From: a virus
Reading direction: 5' to 3' (one strand)
IMG/VR virus record: IMGVR_UViG_3300045996_001815
Location: 1-60,234 of that record
Length of the DNA stretch: 60,234 bases
Below, piece after piece: positions 3,471 to 54,038 of the stretch. The position numbers and the translations under genes are program-made. The notes below the pieces were generated by a model. It had not been told where the DNA came from and did no database searches. It was given only the letters and a program-made list of their open reading frames with translations. Numbering within the stretch: position 1 is the stretch's first letter; each line of letters starts with the position of its first letter.

Positions 3471-4820
3471 TCAGCTGCGCGTCGCGAGCGCGACGTAGGG
3501 CGACTTGGTGGCCGAGCCTTTGAACGGCGTCAGCGCCGTGTGCCAGCCTGGCTTGCCGTCGACGCGGTAGATCAGGCGGAAGGCCTGCTGATCCGTCAGG
3601 AACTGGATGTGCATGGACTGAGCGGCCTGCACCCCGTTCTTGTCGGCCAGCAAGTATTGGCTCCAATCGATGAACGTGATGTCGCCGACGGTGCCGATGG
3701 CTGCCGAGTACTCGAGCGGGATCACCGGCCGGCCGTACAACACGCCGAACGGCTCGGCACTCAGGCCACCGGGCGGCATGTAGACCGGAACGCCACCGGT
3801 GCCGATGGTGCGCGAGAGCTGGTACAGCTGCGGCTCGACATCCTGGTTGATGTGCCACACCGCGTTCTTTCGCGAGCGCGGGTGCATGCGCGACCACATC
3901 TGTTGGATGTTGTTCTCCGTCAGCGTGGCGGCTGCCTGACCGTTGTCCTTGGCGACGGTGACGAGCGCCGGGGAATTCAAGATGCCCAGCGGCTTGCCGA
4001 CGCCATCGCCCTCGAAGATTGCGTCCTCGGTGTTGAAGACGATTTCCTCCGAGAAGGCCTGGGAGGCGATCGATGAGAATGCGGTGGAGTCGGCCAGCAG
4101 CTCATCCGATGCGTACATGATCGAGATCAGCTTGCCCAGGCTCAGCTCGATCAGACGGAAGGACGGGCGGGATGGCGTGCCAGCCGTACCCTCGCCGACC
4201 CAATTGGACGTGACACCGCCCCAGCGGCTGCCGTTGGCGCGGCTGGTCTCGTTCACCGCCGGGATCTTGATACCGTTGAACTGCGCGCCGATCGGGATCG
4301 AGTTCACGCGCTGCAGGATCTCGCCCATGTCGTGAGACAGTGCCCACACCGAGGTGGCAAAGTCGGTCTGCACCAGGAAGCCGCCAGCGGTCGCATCGCT
4401 CTCGCCTGCGCCCAGTGGCGCACGAACCAAGCGCGGATCCTGATCGCTGCCGCGGCTCTCGGCGTACTTGCGGATCGCGACCAGCTGCTCGCCGAACGAT
4501 CGGAAGTTTTTCTTCGGATCCGGCGTAAAGTTCGACGCCTTGCGGGCGTGCGCCAAGTAATCGTGGAATTTCCACTCGCCGCCCCGAGCGCTTCGCTTTG
4601 GGAAGTAGATGACATTCTCCACAGGCGCCTGTTGATCGACATTCAGCGGCACGGCACTCGCCGCCGACAAACGCTCGGCCGTCGCCATGCGTTCGATCTG
4701 GCCGTCGAGGGCCTCGATCTTTTGCTTGGTGACATCGAACGCCGTCGCGTCCTCGACTTGTTTCTGCAGGTCATCCGCAAGAGCTGCGCGCTGCTGGCGG
4801 AGTTCGGAAAGTTTGGCCAT
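3471..4820 (-). CDS. Major capsid protein, HK97 fold
   Basis: 449 residues. The first 60 or so are a charged coiled coil (AKLSELRQQRAALADDLQKQ onward), the delta/scaffold domain that the prohead protease removes. After a linker, the HK97-fold body follows, with family-like segments such as SDATAGGFLVQTDF, VNSIPIGAQFNGIKIPAVNE, EGDGVGKPLGILNSP and IIPLEYSAAIG-type strands. The start at 4820 is preceded by AGGAG; an upstream in-frame start would run into the terminator. It forms the icosahedral shell. Confidence 0.93.
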   Translation of the reverse strand: MAKLSELRQQRAALADDLQKQVEDATAFDVTKQKIEALDGQIERMATAERLSAASAVPLNVDQQAPVENVIYFPKRSARGGEWKFHDYLAHARKASNFTPDPKKNFRSFGEQLVAIRKYAESRGSDQDPRLVRAPLGAGESDATAGGFLVQTDFATSVWALSHDMGEILQRVNSIPIGAQFNGIKIPAVNETSRANGSRWGGVTSNWVGEGTAGTPSRPSFRLIELSLGKLISIMYASDELLADSTAFSSIASQAFSEEIVFNTEDAIFEGDGVGKPLGILNSPALVTVAKDNGQAAATLTENNIQQMWSRMHPRSRKNAVWHINQDVEPQLYQLSRTIGTGGVPVYMPPGGLSAEPFGVLYGRPVIPLEYSAAIGTVGDITFIDWSQYLLADKNGVQAAQSMHIQFLTDQQAFRLIYRVDGKPGWHTALTPFKGSATKSPYVALATRS

Positions 4821-4928: not shown

Positions 4929-6437
4929 CTACGCGACCTTCAGCTTGGCGGCAAGCGCGATTCGCCTGCGGCGCTCGACCGATTGCTTTTGGGCCTCAGT
5001 CTCTTCCTTCTTGCCTGCGTCCTTGGGCTCGGCTTCGCCTGCGCCCTCGGTGCTCTCTTCCTCTTCTGGATCTTCTCCAGTCTCTGCACGCATGTACCTA
5101 GAGATGCGCTGCATCGATCGGCCCATGTATGCGTGCGAGTCGCCCATGTCAGCATGAGATTCGGACAGTCCGTCGCCGGTTTCAGCGACCGAGGCATACG
5201 ACTTCCTGGCTGCACGCATGCAGCGCTGCGCTGATTTGATGTGCGTGTCAGCGCTTTCAGGATTGTCGAGAGCACGTTGCAACGCCTCTTCGGCCTTTCC
5301 GCTCTGCTCGTCGGCCGTGGCAGATGCTGCGCGCATTGACTCCACGTGCGGAGCCATCGCCTCGTGATGCTTGCCCATGTCGGCGTAATGCTCCATCGCG
5401 CGAGCGTAGTGCCCCGCGGCGCGCCCGAGCGGCGCTGCGCTGGGCTCCGCATCTGGGGCCGCGCGCTTGTGCGCAGCCTTCCATGCGCGCGCAGTCGCGC
5501 CCTCTTCGGTTCCCATGTCGTGCTGCGCCAGGAGCTCGGCGACTTCTTCGGTCGTCATCGCGATCAGCGCAGCGCCCAGCTGCTGGAGCGCCGCCCCAAT
5601 CATCGCAGGCACCTGGCTGTTGTCACCCTCGACTTCGGCTTCCCATGCTGCGGTGTCGTGACAGTAGCCCAGACCAGAGAGAATCTGCGCGAGGGTCGCG
5701 CATTCATAGAGTCCGCGCTTGAACGCGGGCTTACCCGCGGCTTTCAGGTGCACAGCTTGGCGCGTCACAATCTCGCGTGCCTTGGGCATGCTCTTCTCCG
5801 GCGCCTTCGCGGCGCGTCGCAATTCGTTCAGTTCATCGGCGCTCATCAGGGTCATGCCGCCCGTGTCGAGCAGTCTCTCAGCCCATCGGTAGATCGGCGA
5901 GGTATCAATGCCCGCGCGGCGCGCAGAGGCCAGTGCATCGGGGTGCGCGGGCACCGGCACTTGACTGATCTCGAGCAGGTCGACGGCTGAGAAATCCACG
6001 CCGCCCGGGCGCTCACGGTCTTTCGACATGCGCCCCTCAATCGGAATCCATGAGGTAGAGACCGCGTTCAAGAACTTGGCGCGCACCATTCGGTAGACGG
6101 TATCCGCGAACGGATTGAGCTCGGCGCTGGCGTACTCGACTGCGCCAACCAACTTGTCGGCGGCCGTCTTGATGCTGACTACGCGACCGATCGGGAGCGA
6201 GCTATCGTCATGCGCCCAGAGGAACACCGGGTTGCGCATGAACGATTCGGTCTGCCATGCGTCGGCTGCCACTGTGTGCATGTCGCGCGCGACGGCTGGC
6301 GTCGAGAACGTGTAAGAGATGATCCGGCCAGCGTCGTCAGGAACAGCATCGCCGGTCGACGCGAGCATGATTGCGACGTTGGCTGCTTCGTCGCCCTGAA
6401 GGCGCGAGAATTGTTCAATCGTGCACAGGCGCCTCAT
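4929..6437 (-). CDS. HK97-family prohead protease with a long C-terminal extension
   Basis: 502 residues. The first 190 or so match the S78 (U35) prohead protease: a catalytic His in LWAHDDSSLPIGRV, a catalytic Ser in LNAVSTSWIP, and the LLEISQVPVPAHPDAL strand. The family is usually about 180-230 residues. Here 280 more follow: a helical His/Met/Glu-rich part (HYARAMEHYADMGKHHEAM) and a very acidic then basic tail. This part probably acts as an internal scaffold or cargo. The gene overlaps portal by four bases upstream and ends before an intrinsic terminator. Confidence 0.9.
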   Translation of the reverse strand: MRRLCTIEQFSRLQGDEAANVAIMLASTGDAVPDDAGRIISYTFSTPAVARDMHTVAADAWQTESFMRNPVFLWAHDDSSLPIGRVVSIKTAADKLVGAVEYASAELNPFADTVYRMVRAKFLNAVSTSWIPIEGRMSKDRERPGGVDFSAVDLLEISQVPVPAHPDALASARRAGIDTSPIYRWAERLLDTGGMTLMSADELNELRRAAKAPEKSMPKAREIVTRQAVHLKAAGKPAFKRGLYECATLAQILSGLGYCHDTAAWEAEVEGDNSQVPAMIGAALQQLGAALIAMTTEEVAELLAQHDMGTEEGATARAWKAAHKRAAPDAEPSAAPLGRAAGHYARAMEHYADMGKHHEAMAPHVESMRAASATADEQSGKAEEALQRALDNPESADTHIKSAQRCMRAARKSYASVAETGDGLSESHADMGDSHAYMGRSMQRISRYMRAETGEDPEEEESTEGAGEAEPKDAGKKEETEAQKQSVERRRRIALAAKLKVA

Positions 6438-8092
6438 AGCTCATCCTCGGCCGGCGGACCCTCCGCGCCTGGCGCTCCGCCGCCGAACCCAGGCTTCGGC
6501 GCGCTGCCCGGCGGTGGCGTGATCGTGATCGGCCGACGCACGCCCTTGTCTTCACTCCAAGCCTTCTGCGCTTCCGGGCTCATGGGCGGCAACTTCATGC
6601 TCTTTCTGAAAGCCTCCTCATCCACCGTCTGCGGTGTGATCGCACCAGCACGCACCGCCACGCCGTACGTGTCCGCCCTTGTGCGAAGGATCGCGTAATC
6701 CTCAACGCCGCCCGCACCATCCGCGTCCACAGGGTCCTGTGCGAACCCAGAGCCTTGCGCCACCTCGTTGTCATCCAGCTCCAGCCCCTCGCTTGGGCGC
6801 CCGCCACCCTCGCCCCCCTCACCAGTCATGTCGCTGCCAAGCCTTCCGCCGTTGCCATCGGACCCTGTGACGGGCGCGGTGATCGGCACCATCGCGGCTG
6901 GCCGGTATAGAATCTTGCCGCCATCCTCGGTCTGCATTCCCTCGCTCGCACGCACCTCGTCGATGGTCTTCCACGGCATGCCGCCCAACGCAGACTTGTG
7001 CGCGGCATAGCGTGTAGCCATGTCCGCCTCTACTAGAGAGTCGACGTCGAACTCGACAAACAGCCGCGACTCATCCAGGTCGAACGTGAAGTCAAGACGC
7101 GTGTACCACATCTTGATCCAACTGCTCAGCGCATCGTTCAAGTACTCTTGTGCGAGCTGCGCGACGCTCGTGCCGCTTGCGCGCTCACCCAACTTGTACA
7201 TCGGCATCCGGAAGATTCGCGCGATCTCGGCCAACTGAAACTTCCGTGCCTCGATGAACTGCAACTCCTCGGAGTTCATGCTGAGCGGCTGCCACTTGAG
7301 CCCTGCCTCAAGCACCGCGGTCTTGCCGGAGTTGAACAGCCCGCTGTTCGCCTCTTTCCAATTTTGCTTACAGCGCTCGGCAACGACTGGATCGAGCTTC
7401 TGCTCGGTCGACAAGATGCCGCTCGGCTTCGCGCTATTGCCGGCCCAGCGCGACGCCAGTTGCTCCTGGGCAATCGCCAACCCGAACGCCTCGCGTGCCG
7501 TGCTGATCTGCGACAGCCCGAGCAGCCCGTTGAGTGACAGCGCCTTGAGGTGGAACATGTCCTCATACGGGATCAGCAGTGGCTGATCCTTCAGCACCGC
7601 CATCTCGTGCATGCCGCTGCGCCCAACCATCCAGAAGAGTTGCGCGTCAGGTCCCTGGTACAGGTGCACGCGCTCCGGATTGATCGGCACCAGCATCTGC
7701 GGCCGCCCCGTGAACGGGTCCCTCACGATCACAGCGTAACCATTGCCGTTCAGTAGCACGCTCGCCTGCAGCATCGCGGCGAATTCCATCCACGTCAGCC
7801 AGGGGGCTGGCTTGCGCAGTAGCTTCGCCAGATAGTGGTCTGACGCCACCTGGCGCGCGCCCTTCCGTTCACCGCGGAACAACGTCGCGCCCAGCTTCGC
7901 AAGGTCGTACGAGAGAATCGTCACGCACGCGTACACCGCGGACACGTGCATCGATGACGCTTGGTTGACGACCACGCCAGCCGCTGTCGGTGCGTAGTAC
8001 GAAGCCCAGTCTCGGAAGTCTGTATCTGCAGTCGAGGTCTCAGGACTGCGCTGCATGCCCATGCCGCGCGCAATCTGCTGAGCGAATCCCAT
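6434..8092 (-). CDS. Portal protein, HK97 family
   Basis: 552 residues. It shows the HK97-type portal pattern: VSAVYACVTILSYDLAKLGA near the start, LNGNGYAVIVRDPFTGRPQ, the SRWAGNSAKPSG segment, and LAEIARIFRMPMYKLGERASG followed by LAQEYLNDALSSWI. Twelve copies form the ring through which DNA enters and leaves the head. The C-terminal 130 residues are Gly/Glu-rich and low in complexity. It starts in the last bases of a small membrane gene and ends inside the protease start. Confidence 0.92.
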   Translation of the reverse strand: MGFAQQIARGMGMQRSPETSTADTDFRDWASYYAPTAAGVVVNQASSMHVSAVYACVTILSYDLAKLGATLFRGERKGARQVASDHYLAKLLRKPAPWLTWMEFAAMLQASVLLNGNGYAVIVRDPFTGRPQMLVPINPERVHLYQGPDAQLFWMVGRSGMHEMAVLKDQPLLIPYEDMFHLKALSLNGLLGLSQISTAREAFGLAIAQEQLASRWAGNSAKPSGILSTEQKLDPVVAERCKQNWKEANSGLFNSGKTAVLEAGLKWQPLSMNSEELQFIEARKFQLAEIARIFRMPMYKLGERASGTSVAQLAQEYLNDALSSWIKMWYTRLDFTFDLDESRLFVEFDVDSLVEADMATRYAAHKSALGGMPWKTIDEVRASEGMQTEDGGKILYRPAAMVPITAPVTGSDGNGGRLGSDMTGEGGEGGGRPSEGLELDDNEVAQGSGFAQDPVDADGAGGVEDYAILRTRADTYGVAVRAGAITPQTVDEEAFRKSMKLPPMSPEAQKAWSEDKGVRRPITITPPPGSAPKPGFGGGAPGAEGPPAEDEL

Positions 8093-44612: not shown

Positions 44613-45092
44613 ATGGACCGCTGGCTCACCCACCTGACTATGGCAACTGGCCACCTACGACGGTCCTACCGCTCGGAGGTGATCGAAGAGGCGATCGCGT
44701 GGGGCCGCGAGGCAATCCGACAAACCACGCTGGCAGGCCCAATGGCGCTGCCGCAGATGGGCCCAGACTATCTGCTCCACTGCACGCGCGAGACCACCCA
44801 GACGCTGCTGTGCTCGGTCTGGCGCGGTGAGGCGGTGTGCGTGACGTTCGGGATCGCGGCCCACAACAAGCAGGGTTCGGGGCTGTGGCGAGCGCTCGTG
44901 GATACCGCTGAGGTGCCGCTGCACCCGTCAATATCCGGGGATGCACTGCCGGCGAAACCATGGTGCGCGGCCAGGCTCGAGCTCGGTGCGCTGGCGATGG
45001 TGCGTGACGGGCAGCGGGAGCAGTTGGAGATGCTCGGCGACCTGGAACGCGTGATCGGGTGGGCTTTCCTGGAGAGCATCAATAATGTCTGA
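44613..45092 (+). CDS. Hypothetical protein
   Basis: 159 residues: MDRWLTHLTMATGHLRRSYR, then an αβ part with LLCSVWRGEAVCVTFGIAAH. It shares its first five residues and 16 bases with the preceding gene. It overlaps the GIY-YIG gene by eight bases. Confidence 0.55.
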   Translation: MDRWLTHLTMATGHLRRSYRSEVIEEAIAWGREAIRQTTLAGPMALPQMGPDYLLHCTRETTQTLLCSVWRGEAVCVTFGIAAHNKQGSGLWRALVDTAEVPLHPSISGDALPAKPWCAARLELGALAMVRDGQREQLEMLGDLERVIGWAFLESINNV

Positions 45093-45504
45093 TGTCATTT
45101 TTGAGCCGCTTGGCTACGGCGAGATCATCTCAAGATCGAAGCCAATTCAATCTGGCTCGCCGGGTGTCTATTTTCTGATCGATGGCGCGACTATCGTTTA
45201 TGTCGGGCAGTCAATCAACGTGCCGGCACGTGTACGACAGCACCAGAACGACCCTCAAAAGACCTTCGATCGTGTTGCGGTCATCGACATCGCCGAAGAG
45301 GATCTGCTTGAGACCGAGAGGTATTACATAGATCTCTTCAGGCCAAAGCACAACCTTCGATTGGGAAGGCCATTTGAAGGAAAGAATCGTAGGCCTCGCA
45401 ACATCATGGTGTCGGATGAGGTGTACGCGATGCTGGAGCGTGCTGGCGATGGGCGGGCTGCCGAGGGGCTGGAGATTGTGGCGAGAGCCTATCGGCAGGC
45501 ATGA
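45085..45504 (+). CDS. GIY-YIG endonuclease
   Basis: 139 residues. SPGVYFLIDGATIVYVGQSI, then NVPARVRQHQ, carry the GVY-x(10)-YVG core and the Arg that follows; E at LLETERYYIDLF and N at PKHNLRL complete the motif. Stand-alone GIY-YIG proteins are homing or repair nucleases; the C-terminal part may target DNA. Last but one in the accessory block. Confidence 0.85.
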   Translation: MSDVIFEPLGYGEIISRSKPIQSGSPGVYFLIDGATIVYVGQSINVPARVRQHQNDPQKTFDRVAVIDIAEEDLLETERYYIDLFRPKHNLRLGRPFEGKNRRPRNIMVSDEVYAMLERAGDGRAAEGLEIVARAYRQA

Positions 45505-45621: not shown

Positions 45622-46143
45622 TTATTGCGCGATTCGAGCGCTAGCACTGGTTGACATCACCCAGGCTTGAAGCTCGCTCAGTTGCTGCCGGTACCGCTCG
45701 CACTCTGCTCCGAGCTGCACCAGTTGAGTTCCAACGTCTCTCCCAGCCTGCAAAGAATCGACCGGTCTGCCGGCGCCGTCATCAGGGCGGGCGGTGGCTG
45801 GGCCGGCTCCGGACACCGGTGCTGGACTGGCTGCGGCAGGCTTGCACAACCTGACAACAGGAGGGCGAGCAAGCAAGTCATCGACCTGGCCTTGTAGCTC
45901 ATTGCGTTTCGACTCCCAGGCCTGAGCGGCCTGCTGTGATTGGATGCGCTGTCGCTGCTCAAGCGCTTCGGTTTCGGCATTGGCGGCGAGCACCCGCGCG
46001 GCCATCTCGGATGTGGCGCGGTCGTAGCCACGCTGCTCTGCTTGGTCGGTGCAGCGGCTGACCAGCACCAGCGTGATTGCAACTGCCGCCGAGACAGCCA
46101 GCACGCGCCAGTAGCGGCGGGCAAACAGCAGCAGAGGGCTCAT
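45622..46143 (-). CDS. Rz: Rz-like inner membrane spanin
   Basis: 173 residues. A signal anchor (YWRVLAVSAAVAITLVLVSR) and a long periplasmic coiled coil (AANAETEALEQRQRIQSQQA) followed by a Pro-rich part and another helix. This is the layout of Rz i-spanins, which bridge to the outer membrane partner and disrupt it at lysis. The partner lies inside the gene in another frame. Confidence 0.82.
   Translation of the reverse strand: MSPLLLFARRYWRVLAVSAAVAITLVLVSRCTDQAEQRGYDRATSEMAARVLAANAETEALEQRQRIQSQQAAQAWESKRNELQGQVDDLLARPPVVRLCKPAAASPAPVSGAGPATARPDDGAGRPVDSLQAGRDVGTQLVQLGAECERYRQQLSELQAWVMSTSASARIAQ
45678..45881 (-). CDS. Rz1: Rz1-like outer membrane lipoprotein spanin, embedded in Rz
   Basis: 67 residues in the other frame of Rz, starting at ATG 45,881. 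The lipobox LLALLLSGC is followed by a Pro-rich mature part (SLPQPVQHRCPEPAQPPPAL). Small, Pro-rich lipoproteins inside Rz are the o-spanins of λ-like lysis systems. GGAG-type site upstream. Confidence 0.85.
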   Translation of the reverse strand: MTCLLALLLSGCASLPQPVQHRCPEPAQPPPALMTAPADRSILCRLGETLELNWCSSEQSASGTGSN

Positions 46144-46349
46144 TGCTCGTCCATCAGCTGATTGGGCACCAGCCACTGCGCGATGAATGTCAGCGCAGTG
46201 CTGAGCCCAACCGCTGCCTCGCCGCTGACCTTGACTCCGGCAAAGGTGTCGGCTGCCCAGACGAGCACCGAGACTGCCCCGCCTACCGCCGCGCCAACGG
46301 CCACCTTGCGGTGCACGGGCTGGCGCTTGGGCTCTGCTACTGCGTTCAT
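46140..46349 (-). CDS. Holin candidate
   Basis: 69 residues with two hydrophobic segments (VAVGAAVGGAVSVLVWAADT and VGLSTALTFIAQWLVP) and charged ends. The size, topology and position between endolysin and Rz identify it as a holin-type membrane protein. Shares four bases with both neighbours. Confidence 0.72.
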   Translation of the reverse strand: MNAVAEPKRQPVHRKVAVGAAVGGAVSVLVWAADTFAGVKVSGEAAVGLSTALTFIAQWLVPNQLMDEQ

Positions 46350-46837
46350 TTTGTCGCCTCGATTGCGTGCTGAAAGTGGATGACAGATTTCGCTGGATCA
46401 GTCTTCCCGGCAGCCGTGTTGTAGTACTTCTTGTGGTACGCAGCCTGCAATGGCGCGTCGTCCTGCGGTGGCAACTGGTAGCCCTGCTGCTTGCGCTGGT
46501 AATGCAGCCCGCACAGCGCCGCGGCATAGAGCGGGTATCGAATCAGCGCCATGTGCGATGTCTCGCCATTGCGCAGCTGATTGAGCGGCTGCGCGAACAC
46601 CGGTCGGAAGCTCAGCCAGTTTTTCCACATGTCGTCGTGGGTAAGTCGTTCGCACTGAAACCATCCGAGCGCCGGCCCGCCGCCGAGCTGTTGCAGGTAG
46701 CGATATCCGCTCTCGTGCGCGCCCGTGCCGAGCACCAGGCATTCGCGCGCCTGCGACCAGATGCCGATGGCGTGGAGGGCTGGGCGGATGATTTCGGCGG
46801 CGATCACTCGCAGCGGTGCGCCATACGTCATGCTCAT
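46346..46837 (-). CDS. Endolysin (lysozyme/transglycosylase-like)
   Basis: 163 residues. VLGTGAHESGYRYLQQLGGG, then PALGWFQCERLTHDDMW, fit a lysozyme-type fold with a catalytic Glu in 'HESG' and the 'GxxGxxQ' strand as in phage muramidases. No signal peptide, so release depends on the holin. The ATG is in the stop of the response-regulator receiver gene. Confidence 0.75.
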   Translation of the reverse strand: MSMTYGAPLRVIAAEIIRPALHAIGIWSQARECLVLGTGAHESGYRYLQQLGGGPALGWFQCERLTHDDMWKNWLSFRPVFAQPLNQLRNGETSHMALIRYPLYAAALCGLHYQRKQQGYQLPPQDDAPLQAAYHKKYYNTAAGKTDPAKSVIHFQHAIEATK

Positions 46838-47202
46838 GGAATCCCCAAGGCCCGCCGTACAACAGCGATCAGGTCCGCCGTCAAATCCTTCTCGACGCTG
46901 GCAAACACACCACGCTGCATGGCCAGTCGTGCGTCCTGCACGCTGACTGTGCCGCTGTAGATGACGAACGGCACCGCCGACGCGACCTGCCGGCAAATCC
47001 GGAGCGCGTCCCACCCATCGAACTGTGGCAGCACGATGTCGCACAGGATGAGATCGGGCAGACCCTCGCCGAACGCTGCACGCAGCCCGGCCTCGGTTTC
47101 GACCACGCGGTAGTCACAAGCGATGCCAGCCTTGCCGAGGTGCCAGCACGCGAGCTCGGCATCCTCGGGGATGTCGTCGATGAAGAGAAGCTCGCGGGTC
47201 AT
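46834..47202 (-). CDS. Stand-alone response-regulator receiver (REC) protein
   Basis: 122 residues, one CheY-like domain and nothing else. Acid pair D9/D10 (FIDDIPED), phosphorylation site D55 (LILCDIVLPQFDGW), S83 (YSGT) and K105 (VEKDL) are all present. Receivers of this kind are regulated by host sensor kinases. It lies between two lysis-block genes and its stop overlaps the endolysin start, suggesting coupling with lysis. Odd cargo for a phage; perhaps it senses host signalling or competes for phosphate. Confidence 0.88.
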   Translation of the reverse strand: MTRELLFIDDIPEDAELACWHLGKAGIACDYRVVETEAGLRAAFGEGLPDLILCDIVLPQFDGWDALRICRQVASAVPFVIYSGTVSVQDARLAMQRGVFASVEKDLTADLIAVVRRALGIP

Positions 47203-47435
47203 TGATCGTCTTCCATGTCGAGCCGCTCCTTGATCCGCCGCTGCTGGGTGCTGAACCGGTGTAGCCGGTCCAGGACCGTGCCCGGCTTCCCCTGGTGACC
47301 GATCTCCTGGTCGAGGCTCTCCACCTTCGCGTCGCGCTTCGCGTCGTGGCGGCTGTGGCCGAATACCCAGAGGCTGAGCGCTACGTTCCAGCCGATGATG
47401 CCGCCCAGAATCCAGAGCAGCACGTCCTCGCTCAT
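47199..47435 (-). CDS. Membrane-anchored coiled-coil protein
   Basis: 78 residues: an N-terminal membrane segment (VLLWILGGIIGWNVALSLWV), then a charged helix (SRHDAKRDAKVESLDQEIGH) and a C-terminal helix. Similar to small phage lysis or membrane proteins of unknown action. ATGA coupled to the receiver gene. Confidence 0.6.
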   Translation of the reverse strand: MSEDVLLWILGGIIGWNVALSLWVFGHSRHDAKRDAKVESLDQEIGHQGKPGTVLDRLHRFSTQQRRIKERLDMEDDQ

Positions 47436-47626
47436 CCGGCCGCGACCTTTCCTACCAGGCGCCGCACGTTCGACCTCTCGCGCGTTGTGAGCGTGCCGCC
47501 GGCATCCAGTTTCTCGAGCGCACCCCTGAGCATGGACTGCTGGCCTACGGTCAAGGCGCTGCTCTCGGTGGCGCCGCGGATGATCATCCTACGCCGGCGT
47601 TCCTCTTCCTCATCTTCGTCGCTCAT
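47432..47626 (-). CDS. Small acidic-basic protein
   Basis: 64 residues: acidic start (SDEDEEEERRRR) and a helical rest (SALTVGQQSMLRGALEKLDA). Coupled by ATGA. Function unknown. Confidence 0.55.
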   Translation of the reverse strand: MSDEDEEEERRRRMIIRGATESSALTVGQQSMLRGALEKLDAGGTLTTRERSNVRRLVGKVAAG

Positions 47627-48054
47627 TTGCGCTTGCTCTCCGCGAGTTGCTTCAGTTCAGCGTTCTTCCGGTCCACGAAATCTCGGGCCAGATCGGCGTT
47701 CTTGACAGCCTGCTCCATGTCGGTCTGGAGCTTCGCGATCGTTGGGGCCATCTTGTTCTCAGTCTCGGCCCGAGCTGTACGCATTGCCCACTCCAGTTCC
47801 TGCTGCCGGCCCATACGATCCTCGATCGTCAGAGCCAGCGCAGCGCCCGCGACCAGCGATAGCAGCACGAACCAGGGGATCAGGTCGTTGTAATGCTGGC
47901 TCTGGTCAACATCGCCTGCAGTGACCTGCTCCTCGTTGCCGCTGATACGAAATATCGCGTTGCCGAATCGGCGCTTGAACCTGTCGCGTAGCCGCTTCAG
48001 TCCATTGGGGTTGCCATTTGCGTCGCGCTTGTCGTCCAGCTTCACCGGTTGCAT
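47623..48054 (-). CDS. Membrane-anchored coiled-coil protein
   Basis: 143 residues. A basic region (GLKRLRDRFKRRFGNAIFRI), a membrane segment (IPWFVLLSLVAGAALALTI) and a coiled coil (MGRQQELEWAMRTARAETEN onward). ATG 48,054 with GAGG preferred over GTG 48,084. It resembles Rz or holin accessory proteins in outline. Confidence 0.55.
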   Translation of the reverse strand: MQPVKLDDKRDANGNPNGLKRLRDRFKRRFGNAIFRISGNEEQVTAGDVDQSQHYNDLIPWFVLLSLVAGAALALTIEDRMGRQQELEWAMRTARAETENKMAPTIAKLQTDMEQAVKNADLARDFVDRKNAELKQLAESKRK

Positions 48055-48088
48055 GTCCGTGCCCTCGTGTTGTTGTGGCAACACCCTA

Positions 48089-48436
48089 TCAGCCGCCCTT
48101 CACGATGGTCCAGACGATGCCGAAGATCGCGACCGCCGCAGCCCCAACGGTCCAAACCAACTGCCAGTTGGACTTGTTCTTGATGATGATCTGCGTGTGC
48201 CCGGCAACCTTTTTGGCCAGCGCCTCGTGCTGCTCCTGGGCGGCCGCGAAACGCTCCTCATCGCGCTTCTCGTGGGTCTGCATGGTCTGCGCCAACCATT
48301 CCAGCCGTACTTTGGTGTCGGCCGCGCTGGCGCGCATGTCCTCTCGGAAATCCTTCTCCTCTCGCAAGCGGGCTCTCTCCTCTTCCCATGCGGCTATGTC
48401 GCGAGCGTCGTTCGATGGCGGTCGGGTGCTGCTCAT
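48089..48436 (-). CDS. XhlA/holin-accessory-like membrane protein
   Basis: 115 residues: a long charged helix (ARLREEKDFREDMRASAADT) then a C-terminal membrane segment (WQLVWTVGAAAVAIFGIVWT). This C-anchored layout is like XhlA-type lysis accessory proteins. It is the first gene of the lysis-side run and has its own upstream gap. Confidence 0.55.
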   Translation of the reverse strand: MSSTRPPSNDARDIAAWEEERARLREEKDFREDMRASAADTKVRLEWLAQTMQTHEKRDEERFAAAQEQHEALAKKVAGHTQIIIKNKSNWQLVWTVGAAAVAIFGIVWTIVKGG

Positions 48437-48561: not shown

Positions 48562-48891
48562 GTGCGTACTGGACCACTGCTCGCGATCCTTGCCGCTCTT
48601 CCGTTGGCCACGGGCTGCCAGGCGCTCATTCCGAGCGGCATCGGCGCCGAAGTCGAACACGATTCCGGCCTGCTCGTGGACGGCCGTGACAGCAGGGGGT
48701 TGCTCAAGGAGGACAGCCTGAATGTCGCCAAGGCCTATCTGGACTGGCAGCGCCCGCTGAGCCGGCGCGCGACGATCTACACCGCGCTTGGGGTCGGCTA
48801 CAAATTCGACGAGGGCGGTTTCGAGACCAGCGGCAGCAAGTGGGTCGGCAACATCAGAACCGGCGTACGCTTCAGCCTCGACCGGAACTGA
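48562..48891 (+). CDS. Outer membrane lipoprotein moron
   Basis: 109 residues from GTG with GGGAG upstream. Signal peptide ending in the lipobox PLATGC, then a β-rich mature part that ends in strands with aromatic ends (ATIYTALGVGYKFDEGGFET). It is alone on the plus strand amid minus late genes and overlaps its convergent neighbour by 20 bases. Such morons are made from the prophage and often block superinfection at the outer membrane. Confidence 0.75.
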   Translation: MRTGPLLAILAALPLATGCQALIPSGIGAEVEHDSGLLVDGRDSRGLLKEDSLNVAKAYLDWQRPLSRRATIYTALGVGYKFDEGGFETSGSKWVGNIRTGVRFSLDRN

Positions 48892-49345
48892 CCTTCTCGT
48901 CCTGCGCAGGCGCAATGTCGGCGCGCAGGGCCTCGATCCTTTGATCCATGGCACGCAGCCGGCTCACCGTCTCGGGATCCGGCTGCCGACTATCCAATCT
49001 TGCCAGTTGCACCTCACGCAGGATCCGCGGCTGCACCTTGGTCTCGAGGTGCTCGATCTCGGCCATGGCAGCCGCGTGGCGCTGGTCGCGCATGATCGCC
49101 ACCGCAGTCTTACGCCATCGCCTGGATTCGGAGCTCCATTCGTAGTCGGCGGCAGGCCCTGGCACGGGCGGGATGTAGTCAATCAGTTGCCCGGTATCCA
49201 AATCGACACGCTGAGACTGCCAGTCGGTTACGCCACCGATCCAATCAAAGCCCTCGGGCTTGTTGGCTTCAAGAAACTCCTCTCCGCCGCTCATCGAGCG
49301 GCCAATGAAGATCCCCGTAGAGAGATCGAAAAGCCACTTGTTCAT
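48872..49345 (-). CDS. Tail-tip-associated/fibre assembly-like protein
   Basis: 157 residues. An N-terminal β part (KWLFDLSTGIFIGRSMSGGE) and PGPAADYEWSSESRRWRKTA with a coiled-coil C-terminus, similar in outline to phage tail fibre assembly proteins. It follows J by an ATGA overlap, the usual position of such proteins. Exact family uncertain. Confidence 0.5.
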   Translation of the reverse strand: MNKWLFDLSTGIFIGRSMSGGEEFLEANKPEGFDWIGGVTDWQSQRVDLDTGQLIDYIPPVPGPAADYEWSSESRRWRKTAVAIMRDQRHAAAMAEIEHLETKVQPRILREVQLARLDSRQPDPETVSRLRAMDQRIEALRADIAPAQDEKVSSGRG

Positions 49346-52300
49346 TTCTTGATCAGCTCGACCTTCAGCGTGATGTTGCGCATGTCGACGGTGCTGGCAG
49401 GCGTCGATTCGTTATTCGCGAACAGCGTAAAGAACCGGTTGTTGCCAGCAGTGACCGCCAGATCGAACTGATCCATGACACGCTCACCTGGGCTTGCAGA
49501 TGCAGTCACCAATTTTCCGCCACTGGACCCCAAGCTCAGACTACCGCTGACACTGCTGGCGCCGATCAAAGCCCGTATATCTGCCGCTCCGCTTTTCCAT
49601 ACGTTTGCCGTCACGGTCACAAGAGCCCTGTAATCGAACTTCTGCGCTGGAACGTTGATCACCGCGAAAACCTGCAGGGCATCTGGCACAGCGTCGTCGC
49701 AGACATGCGTTTCCGTTGCATCGGTGATAGTGAGCACCTCAGTCGCGGCGTCTGGGCCGATCTGCTGAGTATCGACGAGCGTCAAAACATCGCCAGGCCC
49801 GAACTCCAAACCATTGCACGAACAGCCAACCGCGTTGAAGCTCGAATCCATAAAGAGCGTAAGGCCAGACACTGCAACGGTGCGATGCAATACGCCATCG
49901 AGGTAGTACTTGACGTTGGAGCCGTCGTATGTGATCCCAAACAGACTGGTCGTCGTGTAGGTCGCGGGCGAACTAATGAGACTGCCTGATTCGTAGATGC
50001 GCGCCTGCCCGCTGGAGTCGGCATGCCATGCGTAGTCGAGTGAGGTGAAACCCTGATCGGTCGTCGGATCCGTGTTCAACCCCACCATGAAAGAGCCCGA
50101 CGTCTGCGATGCCTTGAACTGCACATGGCAGCTCTGAAAACCAATCAGGCTGTAGGCGTCGGAGTCCCATGCAGCTGAGCCGCCAGACTTCAGCAGTCCG
50201 CGATCCGTCGCTACCACATTCCCGCGCGGGATGAACATGCTGGGGGTAGCGGCGCCATAGGGAACGAATTGCACGTTGCGCGCCGCAGCGCCGGGGCTGT
50301 TCCAACTTGAATCCATGAATAGCGTGACGTCTGGCGCGGCCTTCCTGCGGATAACAGATCCATCCTTGCTGTAAATGATGAACTTGCCGTCATGCACGAT
50401 CGATAGAGCGGTGTCAGTTGTATAAGCGCTGGCACCCAGATCGAGAACAAGTGAGTTTGACTCGTATATCTGAAGTGTCCCGGATGCGGCGCAGTACCAC
50501 GCGTAATCGAGTGACGTGAAGTTCTGGTCTGTGGTCGGGTCCGAGTTGAGTCCGATCATGAATTGCAGATTGGTCTGCTCGGCCTGGAAGGACACCGCGC
50601 AGCCCGTGGCATATGACTGGGTACTGTAGGTGTCGGAGTCCCAAGCGCCCGATCCGCCATTCTTGCGGATGGTGGTCGCGGTGGCGATGCAGTTGCCGCG
50701 CGCGATGAAGGGGATGCTCGGCGCGGTCGTCAGCGGGCCGAACTCCAACTGACTGACTTTGCCGGCGCCATTCCAGGATGAGTCCATGAACAGGGTCTTG
50801 TTGGCTGCCGCGATCGAGCGCTGCAGTACCCCATTTTTGAAGTACTGCACGAGCCGGCCGTCGTACTTGATGCTGAGCGCGGTGGCGCTCGTGTAAGAGC
50901 CGAACGCGCCTATAAGGACGTTGCTCTCGTAGATTTCCAGCGTCGCGTCGTTACGGCAGAACCAAGCGAAGTCCAGCGACGTGAAACTCTGATCTGTCAG
51001 GGGATCGGAGTTCAAACCGATCATGAGAGACTGATTTGTCTGGTCCGGAACGAAGGACACAAAGCATCCGGACTCGAAGGTCTGCGCGCTGTAGACATCC
51101 GAATCCCATGAGCCGCCCGCGCCGTACTTTCCTGCAGTGTTGGCCGTGGCAAAGCAGGTCCCACGCGCGATGAAGGGCACAGCCGGCGCGGACGGATTGC
51201 TGACGAAGGTCACATCCTGCACCGTCGCGCCAGGCGTCGAGAAGCTCGAGTCGAAGAACAGCGATGCGTTGTTTACCTGGGATTGACGCTTCAGCACACC
51301 GTCGACGAAGTACCTGACATTGTGCAGGTCGTAGGTGATCTCGAACACCGTGGTCTTGGTGTATGCAGTCCCGGTGACCACCGATGATCCGCTTTCCCAG
51401 ATACTCCAATTGCCGCTGGCGTCGAGCTTGAAGGCGAAGTCGAGGGACGTGAAATTCTGATCCGTCAGCGGATCAGAGTTCAGTCCCATGTACAGATCGG
51501 CGTTGGTCTGCGACGCGCGGAACGATAGGGAGCTGCCAGTAGAGAACGCGCCGCGCGAATAGCAATCGGAGTCGAATCCACTCGCGGCAGACATCTTCTT
51601 GCTGATGGTGTTGCCGTTGACGAAGCAGTTGCCGCGGGAGATCAGCTCGACACTGGAGATTCGGGGCAGGATGTCGTTCGCTGGAACCGTGTAGCTGTAA
51701 GCTGTGACCGCAGACAGATCTTGCACGCCCGAGCCATAGATGTTGAACGAGACAAACTTGAAGTAGAACGTCTGGCCTATATCACCCGGATCGATCGGGA
51801 TGCGGAAGACCGCGCCATCGAGCCGCACGAAGCGGGTTCCCGAGTTGTGACTCGCGATCGTGGATCCGTACGCGCCTCGACGCAGGTAGCCAAGGTCGTA
51901 CGCACCTGCCCCTGTAAGCGTGACATCGCGATACGACATGACCTCGCCCTCGACCAGGCAGAGGTTGCGCATGTTGTCGGCTTCGGCGGTCGTTGCGCTT
52001 GAGAGCTGCAGACTGGTATTTGCGAGCAGCACCCGAAGCGTATTCGTCGTATCAGGATCCGATCCGGTAGGCAGAGTCGCAGTGAGGGTGCCGTACCGAG
52101 CCGACCCCATGATGCGGCCGACTGCCTCGTAGCGCGCGTTGTCGAGCGACATGTGCACGACGCAGCCACCCCAGGGCGCGCCCGTCGCGCCGCAGACGGC
52201 GATCCAGATCTCATGCCCACCGGCCGGACCGATGAGCAATGCCGGCGCCGAGAAGATCTGCGGGGCGAGCACATTGCCAGGGTCGTCGGCGTAGTTGGCC

Positions 52301-53610
52301 GCGTAACCCTGCGCGGATTGCCAATCGTAGAGCGGCGCGCCAGCCGTGCCGACGAGCACCTCCTCGGCGGTGATGGATAGGCGCAGGGCTTCCTCTTCCG
52401 AGTCTTCGCGGATCTCCGTGATCCTGACCAGTGCGGAACTCAGACCCAGTGCACTGTCGTTCAACGCCAAGAAGTCTCCCGGCTCAAGCAAGCAAAAGTC
52501 AGGGCGCAACTCAAACTCGTATGTGTTGCGAATGTACAGCTGGCGCTGATTGATGATCTGGCCGACCAGGCGCGCACATTCTTTGGTTGTGATCGCGTGG
52601 AACGAGATAGTGTCCATCACACGCTCGCCGCGCTGTGCCACGTCGGACTCGTCTTTGGACTCCGCGATGGTGGGATTGTATTGGTGCTCGCGGTCGTTGA
52701 ACTCCACGCGCACGACGTTGTAGGTGTCGTTGCTCGCCTTGCGGATCAGGCGAACAGGGTCGACGCCTTCCGAAGGACAGTAGTCATCGTCGGTCAGAGA
52801 GAAGATCGGCGTGAGGTCTGCGGTGTACGTGCTCCCATTGCCCGTCACCGACTCGTCGGCATACGGGATGATCTTCAGCACTGCGCCGGACTTGACCGCG
52901 AATGAGTTGCAGATCCGCAGTATCTCGTCGATGAATTCCTTCGCCGGTCGCTGCGCCTTCTCGACCGGGCTCAGGTTGAATCCCATTGCCGTGCAGTATT
53001 CCCCGAAGGTGTTGAGCGTGGTTGCGTCGAGATAGGGGAAGTTGCAGCCGTGAACAGCGTGCGTGCAGTAGTCGTTCAGGATGTCATCGGGGTGCGCGTC
53101 GCCGCCGATCGGGCCAGAGGATCCGATACCAATGACCTCGCAGCTGATTTGTGGCATGGATGCGCCACTTCCAAGCTCGAGCGCCCCGTGAACAAGGATC
53201 GCCGTCGAAGGATAGGCGATAGCTCGTGTCGGATGATTCGTGGTCAGGTACGACCATGTTGCCTGATTGAGCGCGCCGTCGAAGAGCGTGAATCCCAGCG
53301 AACCGACAGTCATCTGGGATTTGTCCTGGTAGACGATGCTGATCCCGATGCTTGGGCCTTCGCACACCATCATGACGACGGCCGCGGAGTACGTGAAGCT
53401 CGTGTTCTTCGGTGCCCCGCCCCCGCCCTTGCCGCCGCCTGTTTTTGAGGTGTGCTCGGTTGCCGTGAAATCCTCGTACTGCAATAGCGCCAGGGAAACT
53501 CTATTCAGGCCGTAGGCAAGCGTGACGGGCACCCCGAACGTGCTCGCGGTGAGCTGGATCTGAGATAGCTTCTCTTCTTTCTGAGAGACGGCGCCTCCTC
53601 TACCGGCCAT
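49342..53610 (-). CDS. J: Tail tip attachment protein J with four lectin-like repeats
   Basis: 1422 residues. The N-terminal 560 are the J/gp29-like hub (VTLAYGLNRVSLALLQYEDF, then VAQRGERVMDTISFHAITTK, QIINQRQLYIRNTYEFELRP). Residues about 650-1275 hold four tandem copies of a domain of about 155 residues, each with 'DSDxYS', 'GLNSDPxTDQxFTSLDYAW', 'IYESG' and 'DGxLxR...LFMDSS'; these look like jelly-roll lectin modules. A β-sandwich end follows. J contacts the receptor and decides host range. Starts in the NlpC/P60 stop. Confidence 0.9.
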   Translation of the reverse strand: MAGRGGAVSQKEEKLSQIQLTASTFGVPVTLAYGLNRVSLALLQYEDFTATEHTSKTGGGKGGGGAPKNTSFTYSAAVVMMVCEGPSIGISIVYQDKSQMTVGSLGFTLFDGALNQATWSYLTTNHPTRAIAYPSTAILVHGALELGSGASMPQISCEVIGIGSSGPIGGDAHPDDILNDYCTHAVHGCNFPYLDATTLNTFGEYCTAMGFNLSPVEKAQRPAKEFIDEILRICNSFAVKSGAVLKIIPYADESVTGNGSTYTADLTPIFSLTDDDYCPSEGVDPVRLIRKASNDTYNVVRVEFNDREHQYNPTIAESKDESDVAQRGERVMDTISFHAITTKECARLVGQIINQRQLYIRNTYEFELRPDFCLLEPGDFLALNDSALGLSSALVRITEIREDSEEEALRLSITAEEVLVGTAGAPLYDWQSAQGYAANYADDPGNVLAPQIFSAPALLIGPAGGHEIWIAVCGATGAPWGGCVVHMSLDNARYEAVGRIMGSARYGTLTATLPTGSDPDTTNTLRVLLANTSLQLSSATTAEADNMRNLCLVEGEVMSYRDVTLTGAGAYDLGYLRRGAYGSTIASHNSGTRFVRLDGAVFRIPIDPGDIGQTFYFKFVSFNIYGSGVQDLSAVTAYSYTVPANDILPRISSVELISRGNCFVNGNTISKKMSAASGFDSDCYSRGAFSTGSSLSFRASQTNADLYMGLNSDPLTDQNFTSLDFAFKLDASGNWSIWESGSSVVTGTAYTKTTVFEITYDLHNVRYFVDGVLKRQSQVNNASLFFDSSFSTPGATVQDVTFVSNPSAPAVPFIARGTCFATANTAGKYGAGGSWDSDVYSAQTFESGCFVSFVPDQTNQSLMIGLNSDPLTDQSFTSLDFAWFCRNDATLEIYESNVLIGAFGSYTSATALSIKYDGRLVQYFKNGVLQRSIAAANKTLFMDSSWNGAGKVSQLEFGPLTTAPSIPFIARGNCIATATTIRKNGGSGAWDSDTYSTQSYATGCAVSFQAEQTNLQFMIGLNSDPTTDQNFTSLDYAWYCAASGTLQIYESNSLVLDLGASAYTTDTALSIVHDGKFIIYSKDGSVIRRKAAPDVTLFMDSSWNSPGAAARNVQFVPYGAATPSMFIPRGNVVATDRGLLKSGGSAAWDSDAYSLIGFQSCHVQFKASQTSGSFMVGLNTDPTTDQGFTSLDYAWHADSSGQARIYESGSLISSPATYTTTSLFGITYDGSNVKYYLDGVLHRTVAVSGLTLFMDSSFNAVGCSCNGLEFGPGDVLTLVDTQQIGPDAATEVLTITDATETHVCDDAVPDALQVFAVINVPAQKFDYRALVTVTANVWKSGAADIRALIGASSVSGSLSLGSSGGKLVTASASPGERVMDQFDLAVTAGNNRFFTLFANNESTPASTVDMRNITLKVELIKK
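49785..51660 (-). repeat. Four tandem repeats encoding lectin-like modules in J
   Basis: Units of about 470 bases run from roughly 51,660 to 51,185, 51,185 to 50,715, 50,715 to 50,240 and 50,240 to 49,785. Copies are diverged but share protein motifs including TSLDYAW and LFMDSS. Boundaries are approximate. Confidence 0.75.
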
Positions 53611-54038
53611 CAGAACACGCTCCAGTAGCTCTCGATACGAGACTCGAGAGACCTGCGCTCGATGATCTCGACGCACCGATGCGGGCGGTAAGCGTGCAGC
53701 GCGTAAGTCTCATCGAGCAGGATCAGACCATGCGCGGCATGCCGGCCGAAGCTGCACATCGCGATATCCGCCGGCAAGGCGGCTGCAGCGGCAATGGGCT
53801 TCGCGAAGCGCTCGAGCTGCTCCAGGAATAGCGGCTGGTCTCGATGCAGATACCATTCCGGGCTGTATTCATCAGGGTAGTACTCGGCCGGCACGAAGCC
53901 GCAGGCTCGATAGACGCCAACTAGCAGCATGGCGCAATCGACACCGACGCCCTTGAGGCACTGATGGTGGTGGTACGGCGTGCGCAGCCATGTTCTCGCC
54001 TCGGCGATGACCGCGGCGCGTGCGTCTGTGTGGTTCAT
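53610..54038 (-). CDS. NlpC/P60 tail peptidase
   Basis: 142 residues. HHHQCLKGVGVDCAMLLVGV has the catalytic Cys, HAAHGLILLDETYALHAYRP the His and the next polar residue. This is the λ K-type tail-tip peptidase that trims murein during DNA entry. It lies between DUF2163 and J as in GTA-type tail modules. ATGA coupled. Confidence 0.88.
   Translation of the reverse strand: MNHTDARAAVIAEARTWLRTPYHHHQCLKGVGVDCAMLLVGVYRACGFVPAEYYPDEYSPEWYLHRDQPLFLEQLERFAKPIAAAAALPADIAMCSFGRHAAHGLILLDETYALHAYRPHRCVEIIERRSLESRIESYWSVF

Follow-up and report, generated by a model that had tools for sequence, protein, structure and literature searches.

The lysis operon and its receiver gene

The window analysed here is the whole 60,234-base IMG/VR virus record IMGVR_UViG_3300045996_001815, which has a terminal direct repeat of 127 bases and whose genes include an integrase, HK97-type head genes, a portal, a large terminase and tail genes; it probably represents a complete temperate siphophage. 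A long tail protein gene on the minus strand (49342-53676) is followed by a chain of small genes, all on the same strand, which includes a gene for a stand-alone response-regulator receiver (REC) of 122 aa (46834-47202). The genes are arranged in the order small membrane/coiled-coil protein, receiver, lytic-transglycosylase-like endolysin, holin-like protein, and Rz with a nested Rz1, and each of the four junctions from the first of these proteins through Rz is a 4-nt ATGA overlap. The preliminary description had placed the receiver between small membrane genes and the endolysin gene, with an ATGA overlap to the latter, and this arrangement is borne out: the overlap lies at 46834-46837, and a second one, at 47199-47202, joins the receiver gene to the upstream membrane gene.

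The upstream gene (47199-47435) encodes a protein of 78 aa in which hydropathy indicates one N-terminal transmembrane (TM) segment (residues 5-23), followed by a charged, coiled-coil-like part; it showed no family match above noise among the Pfam and PHROG profiles. Farther upstream, the same overlapping operon contains a small charged protein (47432-47626) lacking Pfam and PHROG matches, a one-TM coiled-coil-like protein (47623-48084) with no clear family match in either collection, and a protein with a coiled-coil-like body and a C-terminal hydrophobic segment (48089-48436), which is XhlA-like in layout only and has no significant similarity to the XhlA-like protein of phage PB15. Downstream of the endolysin gene lie a holin-like membrane protein of 69 aa (46140-46349; phrog_9284 holin, E=1.4e-4, with a hydrophobic segment), an Rz-like inner-membrane spanin of 173 aa (45622-46143; phrog_312, E=1.8e-4, with an N-terminal TM segment) and, out of frame within the latter, an Rz1-like outer-membrane spanin (45678-45902), whose translation contains the lipobox LLLSGC and a proline-rich stretch. 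The holin and Rz assignments are individually weak (E about 1e-4) and are backed by position and by the nested Rz1. Thus, endolysin, holin and spanins are encoded together in the window as a lysis cassette (phrog_3108, phrog_9284, phrog_312, nested Rz1).

The designation of the 163-aa product of 46346-46837 as an endolysin, also made in the preliminary description, stands in part. The protein matches phrog_3108 (E=7.3e-28), members of which are annotated as endolysin or lytic murein transglycosylase in other phages, and it retains as E42 a glutamate that is invariant in the conserved alignment columns of this family. On the other side, it has no Pfam match, its profile match to phiKZ gp144 is weak (E=0.15), and its structural model is confident but resembles the SLT/gp144 fold only weakly (Foldseek probability 0.98-0.99 but E about 0.01).

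The receiver itself matches Pfam Response_reg (PF00072) with E=4.6e-11 and a score of 43.3 bits (cut-off 30.2), and all five active-site residues (D9, D10, D55, S83 and K105) are intact. Its AlphaFold model adopts the (beta-alpha)5 fold with a mean pLDDT of 95.2, and the top structural match in Foldseek is the N-terminal receiver of LvrB (PDB 8vc9; TM-score 0.89-0.90). Since PF00072 spans residues 6-111 and no other Pfam match was found, the protein is a complete CheY-like domain without an output domain, as had been proposed. The LvrB receiver is also the closest solved relative, with 32% identity, although it forms part of a hybrid histidine kinase. Both proteins have K-D in place of the usual K-P, and this shared motif therefore points to a subfamily trait and not to decay. 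A serine (S102) occupies the aromatic switch position, where most receivers have tyrosine. Codon use in the receiver gene is similar to that of the adjacent phage genes, and neither the receiver nor its neighbours in the window matched a defence system. No histidine kinase was found among the genes of the window phage; any phosphodonor must therefore be host-derived or a small molecule.

Three further features were observed in this region. In the C-terminal half of the long tail protein, units of about 95-110 aa are repeated in tandem several times, and phrog_19691 matches there in four stretches. A putative lipoprotein with a signal peptide and a TGC lipobox is encoded on the plus strand within the late operon (48562-48891) and is possibly independently expressed cargo. 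Just past the lysis genes, a plus-strand ORF (45085-45504) appears, judged by eye only, to be GIY-YIG nuclease-like.

Receivers among the lysis genes of Alteromonas phages

A structure search of viral proteins led to phage V22, and sequence searches from there to further isolates. All of these phages were thus found by receiver similarity alone, and none was picked for its lysis genes; this similarity-based survey covers V22, A5, R8W, H4/4, PB15, XX1924 and R9Y1-3, the last represented by R9Y2. The receiver-bearing Alteromonas phages are of four kinds: siphoviruses (PB15, XX1924 and R9Y), autographiviruses (R8W and H4/4), a schitovirus (A5) and a myovirus (V22). In every one examined, a stand-alone receiver lies among the lysis genes, where its neighbours are endolysins, spanins or holins of different kinds, which strengthens the link between receiver and lysis drawn in the preliminary description. 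In R9Y2, a TM gene, the receiver, a GH108 lysozyme and a small gene are joined by 4-nt overlaps throughout; in PB15, an XhlA-like gene and the receiver precede an M15 endolysin (4-nt overlap) and a 3TM holin; and XX1924 has an XhlA-like gene, the receiver, a DUF5675 protein and a 3TM holin. The receiver overlaps an Rz-like spanin in A5, where a 2TM gene and a phrog_3108 endolysin follow, as well as in V22 and its relative L267, while R8W and H4/4 encode a class II holin, a 1TM protein, the receiver and a phrog_2524 membrane protein. Each of these Alteromonas phages has exactly one receiver, and no histidine kinase scored over the cut-off in any of them. The D, D, D, S and K residues are invariant in all 10 phage receivers aligned.

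Some of these genes have been described previously under other headings. The CheY-like genes V22 gp30 and A5 gp11 (PMC7289586, PMC10579305) resemble that of the window in that they encode a stand-alone receiver and follow the tail-fibre genes; the receiver gene shares its end with an overlapping spanin-like gene, and in A5 the endolysin family of the window follows. Both were published as class II auxiliary metabolic genes (AMGs) in a host-recognition module, and the available portions of the papers draw no link to lysis. The receivers of R8W (g48, “PhoB”; PMC8228385) and H4/4 (gp44) are encoded beside the class II holin, with a small 1TM gene on one side and the gene of a membrane protein on the other, and a role in phosphate adaptation was proposed for g48 by its authors (PMC8228385). 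However, g48 (positions 3992-4453 of our R8W locus, L262) comprises a receiver domain only, with no match to a DNA-binding domain; the name PhoB is thus a misnomer and likely a misannotation. A literature search of partial coverage returned no account in which receivers belong to a lysis cassette.

The window fits the layout seen in the Alteromonas phages, namely a receiver beside lysis genes with a small membrane coiled-coil gene before it. In all nine cassettes, the receiver gene is directly preceded by one for a small protein of 78-125 aa whose charged body is coiled-coil-like, as judged from sequence and not with a coil predictor. Six of these proteins (in the window, R9Y2, R8W, H4/4, PB15 and XX1924) have a clear TM segment, and the other three (in A5, V22 and L267) a weaker N-terminal hydrophobic stretch. 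These upstream proteins vary between groups in sequence and in the position of the TM segment, so a single conserved partner for the receivers is unsupported. Comparable TM genes also precede the endolysin in phages without receivers, and the receiver may therefore have joined an existing membrane component, which is its best candidate partner.

Rarity, placement and descent of the window receiver

Phage-borne receivers had been described as rare, and this holds among relatives of the window phage: a receiver of any kind occurs in one of 50 TerL-related and one of 50 endolysin-related virus records, some of which are fragments. Of these two receivers, one is free-standing and near lysis genes, in an endolysin-related record (L152), 1.1 kb downstream of its endolysin gene. 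The other, in the terminase-related record G052, stands beside a kinase and an integrase; it belongs to a kinase-regulator pair and was rejected as a counterpart. In L152, a SLATT-like membrane protein (5441-5854) directly follows the endolysin, and the free receiver (6582-6971) is about 1 kb beyond.

The junction occupied by the receiver was compared across 80 IMG/VR loci of the same endolysin family, which, after removal of duplicates and addition of GenBank relatives, gave 71 distinct loci. A small TM gene lies directly before the endolysin gene, with nothing else at the junction, in 55 of these; a gene without a clear TM segment takes this position in six, the window included, and a receiver in the window alone. 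The window receiver therefore appears to have been inserted between two coupled genes that are normally neighbours, and the coupling was kept. Close relatives presumably lyse without a receiver, and their scarcity of receivers, taken alone, would suggest stray cargo. The preliminary description had named relatives that lack the gene with no change in lysis, together with random placement, as evidence against a role in lysis; relatives lacking it do exist, but the placement does not appear random.

As a query against IMG/VR, the receiver recovered one relative, L002, and an alignment query added L172; both were set aside. In L002, a C39 peptidase gene precedes that of the receiver, but the record also contains another receiver and lacks a match to the phrog_9 terminase, and its viral nature is uncertain. 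The L172 receiver, which has an EAL-like output region and lies next to an integrase, is probably host flank. A scan of genome contigs returned generic receivers only, a scan with the tail protein found no relatives, and an alignment scan with A12 gave no matches. Many receiver-containing records labelled as phage, in the OR84-85xxxx, MT83xxxx and CAKLQ series, were excluded from the count, as they appear to be contaminating host sequence or unverified contigs. The match in OQ572412 falls in a diguanylate cyclase gene region, that in OQ658365 within bacterial genes, and that in Komp_PAO1_1 antisense to an annotated gene. In the provirus record L254 (432-1860), a gene for a PAS-containing histidine kinase overlaps one for a single-domain receiver beside an integrase, and the region represents prophage or host flank.

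In a phylogenetic tree, the receivers of the Alteromonas phages and L152 form one group, whereas that of the window is placed among cellular receivers; the evidence is moderate, given that the cellular sample was fetched using the window receiver and that the window branch is long. Common descent of the window and Alteromonas phage receivers was thus not recovered, and identity between the window receiver and those of V22 and A5 is 29-33%. The separate grouping suggests that the window receiver probably arrived independently and that placement in a lysis cassette probably arose at least twice. Several kinds of lysis gene occur next to the receivers of the Alteromonas phage group, but since these receivers form a single group, their placements are not fully independent. 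A rough estimate of the probability of such placement by chance is about 7e-4 if three Alteromonas phage receiver groups were placed independently; the estimate is much weaker under one origin, and little weight is placed on it.

A possible role in lysis and its alternatives

Lysis timing is usually explained by the accumulation of holin and the action of antiholins. To this scheme the receiver may add a phosphorylatable single-domain regulator, an accessory of the lysis cassette through which a host signal shifts lysis via a membrane protein or the holin, and we give this reading a probability of about 0.5. The receiver would be made late, as is presumed from its operon, in translational coupling with the preceding small membrane coiled-coil protein and the following endolysin. 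A host histidine kinase or a small donor such as acetyl phosphate would supply the phosphoryl group, and, depending on phosphorylation, the receiver would most likely bind the upstream membrane protein, or else the holin system, so that lysis is advanced or delayed. Conservation of the active site across divergent phage receivers argues that phosphorylation matters, and a receiver with neither a kinase of its own nor an output domain must act by contact, for which the nearest candidates are the membrane protein translated together with it and the holin/endolysin system.

Precedents exist for the separate elements of this proposal. In its phosphorylated form, the single-domain regulator EpsW binds a membrane enzyme directly and thereby activates it (PMC12802240); like MrrA (PMC5964349), EpsW is a free receiver acting through protein contacts, although both are cellular proteins with known cognate signalling and do not occur in phages. 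Endolysin expression and lysis in RcGTA, and with them the release of phage-like particles, depend on the host phosphorelay regulator CtrA (PMC6363796), but there the control is transcriptional and exerted by a DNA-binding host protein.

Alternatively, the receiver may be directed at the host, where it would act as a phosphate sink or as a mimic that binds kinases and so interfere with late two-component signalling (e.g., envelope stress or the phosphate response), its position in the lysis operon reflecting only the strong late expression of that operon. The lack of a phage kinase, the resemblance to hybrid-kinase receivers such as that of LvrB, also seen in the tree, and the published capacity of single-domain regulators to act as sinks agree with such a decoy, and the phage protein PIT4, which the paper does not describe as a receiver, targets histidine kinases (PMC10714779). 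However, early infection is when a decoy would help most, and PIT4 itself is an early gene; this explanation also fails to account for a gene that is always found with the lysis genes and not at some other point of the late operon, and we therefore consider it unlikely.

Slightly less probable still is that a host receiver was caught by chance and retained as a moron or AMG for a mild benefit unrelated to lysis, in a post-tail-fibre region that accepts extra genes. Its rarity and patchy distribution among relatives, and the filing of the V22, A5 and R8W copies as AMGs by their authors (PMC7289586, PMC10579305, PMC8228385), would accord with such cargo, but the gene is inserted between coupled genes and not at the operon end, at a junction that in most endolysin loci admits the small TM gene alone, and the chance-placement estimate, for groups that may not be independent, points the same way. 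That the fold serves only as a phosphorylation-independent adaptor, binding the adjacent membrane or endolysin protein, is highly improbable, because the five active-site residues are kept in 10 divergent phage receivers, even though atypical receivers are known and the window receiver has serine at the switch tyrosine position.

If the receiver does act in lysis, a cassette receiver would provide a direct route from the physiological state of the host to lysis time, and the published AMG annotations in V22, A5 and R8W would be re-read as lysis genes. It is also tempting to speculate, more tentatively, that several tailed-phage families have repeatedly gained a phospho-receiver in the cassette, and that two-component or acetyl-phosphate signals of the host gate lysis post-translationally through a membrane coiled-coil partner, as a signal-controlled lysis clock. 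Because cultured Alteromonas phages share the layout, this idea can already be tested. As a separate observation, DUF5675/phrog_1501 proteins recur in or near these cassettes (L259, 2438-2836; L267, 6315-6713; L256, 12829-13236) and may represent an uncharacterised family of lysis proteins.
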